Source: Candidatus Berkelbacteria bacterium
GTDB taxonomy: Bacteria > Patescibacteriota > UBA1384 > JAHJRZ01
Length of the DNA: 11,877 nucleotides
Direction: 5' to 3'
Assembly (NCBI GenBank): GCA_026397195.1
Contig: JAPLVI010000012.1
Coordinates: 1-11,877 of the forward strand
Every line of letters starts with the position of its first letter. Positions within the stretch are counted from its first letter, which is position 1. This document shows, in pieces, positions 2,724 to 4,756 of this stretch. Both the position numbers and the translations under genes were made by a program. Below the pieces are notes generated by a model. That model was not told the origin of the DNA and ran no database searches. It saw nothing but the letters and a program-made list of their open reading frames with translations.

Positions 2724-3130
2724 CTGTGTGTTATCTATATGTCGCCATATAGTTCAGACCATCTCTTCTCCAGTATTGGAGTCTGACGTATGGTCGTTGA
2801 GGATTATGGAGAATAGCGCGCCGATACTCTATTTAGACAAGAGTTGATCGGTATTTTAACGCTTAATCATGGGCTCATTGATGATATGGCCTCAAGGGCT
2901 CTTTCAAATCAGTCTAATCGGCCTCATGAAATGTTAAACCGCGCTACCTCAAAATTGCTTTCAAGGTAACTCCTTTCCTGCTGATAATCCCCACTGAAGA
3001 ATTTTTACTAATTTATAGTATCTCCAGATACACGGGACTTCCCAGCATACAGTCAGATTTTTATTCTACATCTCCGTGGCGTACGAAGTTCAAATAGAGG
3101 GCTTGCACCTCACTATGGCAGTTGATTCCT
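2724..3130 (-). ncRNA. Group I self-splicing intron in 23S rRNA (L1931 site), no ORF
   Basis: The 407-nt insertion separates GGTCCTATGGT from AGCGAAATTCC, which are contiguous in other bacteria, and ends in the required G (2724). P1 forms between exon CUAUGGU (3137-3131) and guide GCCAUAG (3119-3113), with a U-G wobble at the splice site. P3 pairs UCUGAC (from 3057) with GUCAGA (near 2782-2787). P4 is GCUGG with UCAGC and P5 is GUCCC with GGGAU. P7 is GACCAU (2795-2790) with AUGGUC (2762-2757). P8 is a CUCCA/UGGAG hairpin (2781-2768), and P9 is CUAUAUG/CAUAUAG capped by a GCGA tetraloop (2752-2735). No homing-endonuclease frame is present, so mobility would need help in trans. Subgroup is not assigned. 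Confidence 0.92.
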
Positions 3131-4756
3131 ACCATAGGACCGTTATAGTTACGGCCGCCGTTTACTAGGGCTTAAGCCGGTGCCCTCCCCGAAGGGTCAG
3201 CACCAACGTTGACCTACTAGCACTGGGCAGGCGTCAGCTCCTATACATCCCATTTCTGGTTAGCAGGAGCCTGTGTTTTTGGTAAACAGTCGCCTAGACT
3301 CTTTCGCTGCGGCCCACATAAGTGGGCAGACCTTATCCCGAAGTTACGATCGCTTAATTGCCGAGTTCCTTAACGAAGGTTCTTCCGATCACCTTAGTAT
3401 ACTCTACCCAACCACCTGAGTCGGTTTGCGGTACGGATTCCATGATCTAAGAAACAAAACTTTTCTCGGCACTAATTCAACCTACAAAATCCAATCATAA
3501 GGATAATGTAGACATCCAAAATGCGTCATTCTGCACAAAATCATGGAAGTTCAGGAATATAAACCTGATGTCCATCGCCTATCCCTTTCGGGTTTGGCTT
3601 AGGACCGACTAACCCTGGAACGATTAACGTTGTCCAGGAAACCTTGGTCATTCGGTGTTCCGGTTTCTCACCGGAATAATTCGTTACTCATGCCAACATT
3701 CTCACTTCTATACACTCCATCAGCCCTTACGAGCTAACTTCGACGCGTATAGAACGCTCCCCTACCACTCTGATAAATCAGAGTCTGCATCTTCGGTACT
3801 GACTTTGAGCCCCGTTAAATCTTCGGCGCGACCTCTCGATAGAGTAGTGAGTTGTTACACACTCTTTAAAGGTTTGCTACTTCTAAGCTAACCTCCTACC
3901 TGTCTAAGAGAGATCACTTCCTTTTCCACTTAAGTCAAATTTAGGGACCTTAGATGGCAGTCCGGGCTGTTTCCCTCTCGACCATGGAGCTTATCCCCCA
4001 CAGTCTGACTCCCAAGCTCAAACACGCGGTATTTGAGGTTTGATTCGATCGCGTTCCATAAGGAACGATAATCGATTCAGCGCCTTACCCCCGCGCTTAT
4101 ACTTGGGGCTATACCTAAATATATTTCGGGGAGAACCAGCTATCGCCAGGTTCGTTAGGCATTTTACCTCTATCCACAGCTCATCTCAGCCGTTTGCCGC
4201 CGACTTGAGTTCGGGCTTCCCCCCGCGATCAAGCGGGGTTCACCCTGGCCATGGATAGCTCACCTGGTTTCGGGTCTAGTAATTACGACTAATTTCGCCT
4301 TTTAAGACTCGGTTTCCCTGCGACTACACTCGAATAGAGTTTAATCTTGCCGTAAATACTAACTCGTTGGCTCGTTCTACAAAAAGCACAACATCACCCT
4401 TGCGGGCTCTGTTTCTTTGTCTGCATATGGTTTCAGGTACTATTTCACTCCCCTCACCGGGGGACTTTTCACCTTTCCCTCACGGTACTTGTTCGCTATC
4501 GGCGTAAAAAGTATTTAGTCTTACCCCTTGTTCAGGGTAGATTCATCCCGGATTTCACGTGTCCGAGAATACTCGGGTGCTTGCTAGAAAGCTACTTACA
4601 TTTCGAATACGGGGCTATCACCCTCTATGGCCGTCCTTTCCAGGTTCGTTCTTCTATATGTTCACTTTCCGTATACAAGTCCCACAACTCCAATCACCGA
4701 AGTGATTAGTTTAGACTGGTCCCTTTTCGCTCGCCACTACTAAGGGAATGTAGTTG

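Follow-up and report, generated by a model that had tools for sequence, protein, structure and literature searches.

Why does the internal guide of a group I intron fit a base at which the 23S rRNA of its host differs from that of E. coli? This question is raised by the window, an 11,877-nt stretch of DNA from a Candidatus Berkelbacteria bacterium. Its minus strand carries a 5S gene and a full 23S gene, with a 407-nt insert inside the 23S gene (3130 to 2724). The original prediction described an ORF-less group I intron at 23S L1931 whose guide pairs with a rare exon base, and left two readings: either intron and rRNA had drifted together, or the intron had been selected for a variant target.

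A group I intron after U1931

In E. coli K-12 rrlB numbering, the insert follows U1931 of the 23S rRNA, which places it at L1931 as predicted. The E. coli motif is CCTAAGGT, with T1931 at its end and A1928 as its second A. The 5′ exon in the window is CCUAUGGU, with U at 1928 (window position 3134), and exon 2 starts with AGCGAAAUUCC at 2723. The extent had been given as 2724 to 3137. Its 2724 end was correct, and the base there is the expected terminal G, but the real intron is 2724-3130; 3131-3137 are the seven exon bases CUAUGGU of P1 (Table 1).

Table 1. Features of the interrupted 23S rRNA gene in the window.
Feature	Position	Strand	Evidence
23S rRNA gene, intron-interrupted	1774..5062	-	Rfam RF02541, 2470 bits
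Group I intron at L1931, 407 nt, no ORF	2724..3130	-	RF00028 35.2 bits, E 2.5e-7; alignment with 21, then 23 other L1931 introns
Terminal guanosine of intron	2724..2724	-	read from sequence
5′ exon strand of P1, CUAUGGU; U1928 = 3134, U1931 = 3131	3131..3137	-	K-12 numbering
Internal guide GCCAUAG; A at 3116 opposite U1928	3113..3119	-	7/7 pairs
P3 5′ strand UCUGAC; 3′ strand GUCAGA at 2782-2787	3052..3057	-	129/132 cells paired, several compensatory types
P4 5′ strand UGCUGG; 3′ strand at 2979-2984	3042..3047	-	132/132 cells paired
P5 and extension; UCCC (3034-3037) with GGGA (2988-2991)	2988..3037	-	compensatory UCCC/GGGA vs UCUG/CAGA
P6 and ORF-less insert, site of LAGLIDADG_1 gene in relatives; hairpin UUGAAAGCAAUUUUGA at 2949-2964	2800..2979	-	
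P7 5′ strand GACCAU; 3′ strand AUGGUC at 2757-2762; guanosine-binding helix	2790..2795	-	122/132 cells paired, U-A to C-G change
P8 hairpin CUCCA/UGGAG	2768..2781	-	84/108 cells paired
J8/7 AAGAG; last base U in 23 other aligned introns	2763..2767	-	24-intron alignment
P9 hairpin CUAUAUG/CAUAUAG	2735..2752	-	154/154 cells paired

The covariance-model search that had been proposed as a check, Rfam Intron_gpI (RF00028), matched the insert over the whole model (1-253) in a 571-base search, with E 2.5e-7. Its score of 35.2 bits is under the gathering score of 50 bits, and the intron was therefore absent from the whole-window Rfam scan at gathering. Among other L1931 loci, 6 of 13 passed gathering and 7 of 13 fell below it in one scan. 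Long peripheral inserts are a likely cause of these low scores.

L1931 introns of the window's genome, of its class and of further families in the phylum were aligned, 22 at first and later 24. Pair counts are cells over the 22 rows, the helices being those of the window intron. P1 to P9 could be drawn, in agreement with the predicted core pairings, and most helices had compensatory changes among the relatives. Such pair types were present in P2, P2.1, P3, P5, P7, P8 and P9; P1 had one covarying pair, P4 a compensatory change in one row only, and P6 (3 bp) was paired without any compensatory change. Beyond the helices in Table 1, paired cells numbered 146/152 in P1, 63/65 in P2, 162/180 in P2.1 and 64/66 in P6. 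The sixth pair of P7 was broken in 9 of 22 rows, and the splice-site U.G pair of P1 was invariant (22/22). Both the P3/P7 pseudoknot and the P4-P6 domain were present in the window intron in the 22- and 24-sequence alignments. P10 is possible in the sequence, between AG of the 3′ exon and CU lying 5′ of the guide. The highest identity of an aligned intron to that of the window was 73-74% over kept columns. J8/7 ended in G in the window and in U in all 23 others; an odd base found here alone suggests that catalysis may be weak.

The drawable core and the compensatory changes bear out the group I assignment; the RF00028 match is beyond chance by its E value but falls short of the gathering score. 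Judged from its sequence, the insert of 2724-3130 is a real group I intron of the L1931 family in 23S genes of CPR (Patescibacteria).

The terminal base was G in 16 of the 24 L1931 introns, A in 8 (G051, G033, G018, G036, G035, G043, L043 and G150) and C or U in none. A terminal G in group I introns is called universal in a statement of PMC9223047. By a motif-and-length rule, a LAGLIDADG gene was found in 7 of 8 A-ending and 6 of 16 G-ending introns (Fisher p 0.033, kinship ignored).

Absence of an endonuclease gene

Open stretches in the intron reach at most 34 aa on its own strand and 55 aa on the opposite strand, so that the intron is ORF-less, as had been claimed. A LAGLIDADG_1 gene in P6 is common but not defining in the L1931 family, in which ORF-less members are known; it is absent from the window intron, whose core can be aligned with those of endonuclease-bearing introns at the same site. 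A tblastn search of the relatives' endonuclease frames against the window intron gave nothing convincing in the body of the P6 insert. A degenerate endonuclease was considered there and rejected. The three best matches of the search (E 5e-4 to 0.006) were at intron positions 299-374, where the 3′ edge of the insert runs into the P6/P7/P3/P8 core; of the weaker ones within the insert, some had the wrong strand or contained stops and others lay at a QQER stretch that belongs to the core. The window intron has presumably lost a LAGLIDADG homing endonuclease gene.

The P6 insert contains a 16-base hairpin, TTGAAAGCAATTTTGA, that occurs three times in the 55 genomes of the class, always within the insert of a group I intron of a 23S gene: at window 2949-2964, at G039:C44:11857-11872 and at G050:C12:252-267. 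Two of these introns are at L1931; the site in G050 looks like L2593 by eye. The outer stem differs yet pairs, also by eye. The hairpin is possibly a shared P6 element that moved between sites. In another member of the family (L102, the G048 intron), the P6 insert has a 72-aa ORF without a Pfam match where a LAGLIDADG gene would be.

A second and stronger group I intron (61.6 bits) was detected at locus L001 (G000 contig C31, about 970-1770). It interrupts what by eye is an apparent initiator tRNA-Met gene, one not in the ARAGORN list, and has a 158-aa antisense ORF with no confident Pfam match. In the window itself, a purH-like gene (AICARFT_IMPCHas, MGS) at 7183-8796 lies in a stretch with a GC content of 57-63%, against about 36-49% elsewhere; this stretch may be a recent transfer or part of a chimeric contig.

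Base 1928 in genomes with and without the intron

The window's class comprised 55 genomes, with base 1928 readable in 36. The base was U in 33 of these: in 12 of the 13 with an L1931 intron and in 21 of the 23 without. The exceptions were A in G019 and G035 and C in G034. Additional 23S loci with A1928 were found in class genomes with U1928, four in G011, one in G023 and one in G037. These loci are probably misbinned; when the three genomes are left out, the counts become 30 of 33 for the class and 18 of 20 for its intron-free members.

In a sample of 286 genomes of the phylum, the uninterrupted motif was found in 136, at 137 places, and the other 150 were uninformative. At these places base 1928 was A in 93, U in 41 and C in 3; outside the window's class the numbers were 90, 28 and 2 (120 places). 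In a collection of 84,980 species, each represented by one genome, the exact form CCTATGG was found in 39 stretches, a count without an A-form denominator and with two stretches from one MAG. At L1931, 31 of these stretches were intron-free, 7 had an intron and 1 was cut. Most were in genomes labelled by their depositors as Doudnabacteria, Berkelbacteria, Gracilibacteria/SR1 or Armatimonadota, and the rest had other names or none. U1928 may thus be a rarity over all bacteria.

Because U1928 is usual in the class with or without the intron, and because 31 of the 39 CCTATGG stretches are intron-free, we take U1928 to be native to the host lineage and the guide to be fitted to it. The idea that U1928 is an odd target for this host did not survive these counts. 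The comparison of 23S genes with and without the intron, which the original prediction had called for, gave U1928 in both and did not tie the base to the intron; selection of the intron for an odd target is rejected. An apparent oddity is removed by these counts, since the rRNA base in question, although A in E. coli, is frequently U in the CPR radiation.

A tertiary partner for base 1928 was also considered. Positions 1830 and 1975 were shifted between U and A genomes, but there were exceptions both ways: U1928 with C-G at 1830/1975 in the window, three genomes of family f35, Armatimonadota records and G051, and A1928 with U-A in one f38 genome and two f67 genomes. Such mixed combinations point to a lineage effect and look unlike a base triple. 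Some rows of this alignment were misread beside helix 69 introns, and L075 and L098 were scored A where their own sequence has U. An insert in helix 69 near 1917 was seen in class 23S loci L075, L076, L081, L083, L098 and L113, some of which also have an L1931 intron. A literature search of limited scope found no paper on A1928 with 23S rRNA, and the main text of PMC11270868 contains none of the words 1928, guide and covariation.

Match and mismatch between guide and exon

The guide GCCAUAG (3119-3113) pairs with CUAUGGU at 7 of 7 positions, with a U.G pair at the splice site. The A at 3116 faces U1928, so the predicted pairing with the changed base is present. The computed energy of P1 was -8.1 kcal/mol when matched and -4.1 with U.U.

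Among the 24 aligned introns, the exon/guide states were U/A in 13, A/U in 7, U/U (mismatched) in 4 and A/A in none (Fisher p 0.00095 for the association, kinship ignored), and the predicted exon-guide covariation is thus seen. The guide was unmatched in 4 of the 17 introns with a U exon (G048, G049, G043 and G064), where it was of the type fitting an A exon. For G171, G064 and G150 we used the aligned GCUGCC guide, since the automatic finder chose non-homologous matches there. Left out of the count were G274 and G289, which have A exons, L1931 inserts with a different start and guides that could not be aligned, and L063, which is not an intron. Introns outside the class were taken by a pattern in which the intron begins with AG but not with AGC, from one family, or, for L043, by the species scan. 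As the scripts demanded AG or GG at the intron start, introns with other starts were missed.

On the intron tree of 24 rows, there were at least three exon changes and at least seven guide changes. Little of this tree is resolved, with 4 of its 21 inner branches starred. It gave one independent pair on starred branches and three on all branches, none against the expected direction, numbers at which significance is unreachable, as a sign test can get to 0.05 only with six or more independent pairs that differ in the guide; the 22-row tree gave two to three. G035, with an A exon and a U guide among U/A introns of the same class, was inside a starred set on the 22-row tree but not on the 24-row tree.

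Family f35 (10 genomes, site readable in 6), which together with G035 offers the clearest cases, contains several of these states. Within its genus g58, one genome has A without an intron (G085), one is A/U (G195) and one is U/U (G064), and three other genera of the family are U/A (G171, G202 and G212).

The covariation is real in the counts and is expected for a group I intron; as repeated independent co-change it is supported by one to three pairs. The four U/U introns suggest that the exon may change first and the guide lag, or these introns may have come from A hosts. Our preference is for a change in the host base to which the guide later adapts; transfer from an A host would give U/U too. 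Of the two readings left by the original prediction, drifting together is therefore the nearest, with the exon perhaps leading and the guide following later; selection for a variant target does not stand. The A/U and U/U introns of g58 beside the U/A genera of the same family lead to a broader reading, to which we give even odds: the CPR L1931 introns would record the retargeting of a ribozyme, in which base 1928 of the host switches between A and U on its own, a U.U mismatch is tolerated for a while, and the guide then mutates to match. The 24 aligned introns, for each of which the exon and guide bases are recorded and of which four are mismatched, form a set that can be used for studies of P1 tolerance and of the order of changes.

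Origin of the matched guide

With a probability of about 0.85, we explain the locus as an L1931 group I intron without a LAGLIDADG gene, in a host lineage in which base 1928 turned from A to U independently of any intron, with selection for splicing having kept or brought the facing guide base to A. The match of the guide to U1928 would then be an ordinary fit to the host rRNA. Group I introns splice by two transesterifications, of which the one by guanosine bound in P7 comes first. Here, an exogenous guanosine bound in P7 would attack after U1931 at the U.G pair in P1; U1931 would then attack after the terminal G and be joined to A1932.

It is highly improbable, in our estimate, that the intron brought the variant with it, the two spreading together, for example by co-conversion of the flanking exon at homing. 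In favour of joint spread, U1928 is present in 12 of the 13 class genomes that have the intron, and the guide matches it in most; but the base is equally common in class genomes free of the intron (21/23) and is also found in records without it that carry the labels Doudnabacteria, Gracilibacteria/SR1 and Armatimonadota. Co-conversion is disfavoured by this, and the window intron, without an endonuclease gene, offers no homing gene for it.

The element might also be a decayed intron that no longer splices, with the 23S rRNA staying interrupted or fragmented in the manner of intervening sequences excised by RNase III. The J8/7 change confined to the window among 24 introns, the Rfam score under the cut-off and the missing endonuclease gene would fit decay, which we nevertheless regard as very unlikely: P3, P4, P7 and P9 are intact, P1 has 7 bp and the terminal G is present. 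The site lies in the conserved strand adjoining helix 69, and 407 nt left unspliced there should be harmful. With a 424-base 23S query, a single further 23S piece was found in this assembly (79.5% complete), a partial and 72% identical one (G000:C102:1-343) that is likely misbinned. A working intron with a guide fitted to the host's own U1928 remains our preferred reading.

Comparison with known insertions in 23S rRNA genes

Position 1931 is recorded as a CPR 23S insertion site for LAGLIDADG_1 by Tsurumaki et al. (2024, PMC11270868). Group I introns that lack an annotated ORF are frequent in these genes, and the same report counts 222 over all sites. The window intron has the site, the group I fold and the host radiation in common with the CPR 1931 insertions of that report. 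Introns at L1931 also occur in Simkania, Thermotoga, Synechococcus and organelles (PMC1995217). They have the insertion position and the group I type in common with the window intron. The table of PMC1995217 holds endonuclease-bearing introns only, whereas the window intron is without such a gene. The 23S intervening sequences excised by RNase III are likewise extra DNA in the 23S genes of reduced genomes, as noted in PMC11270868. Such sequences have no intron core and leave the rRNA unjoined after excision. The element in the window differs from them in having a full group I core and in lying at a known intron site.
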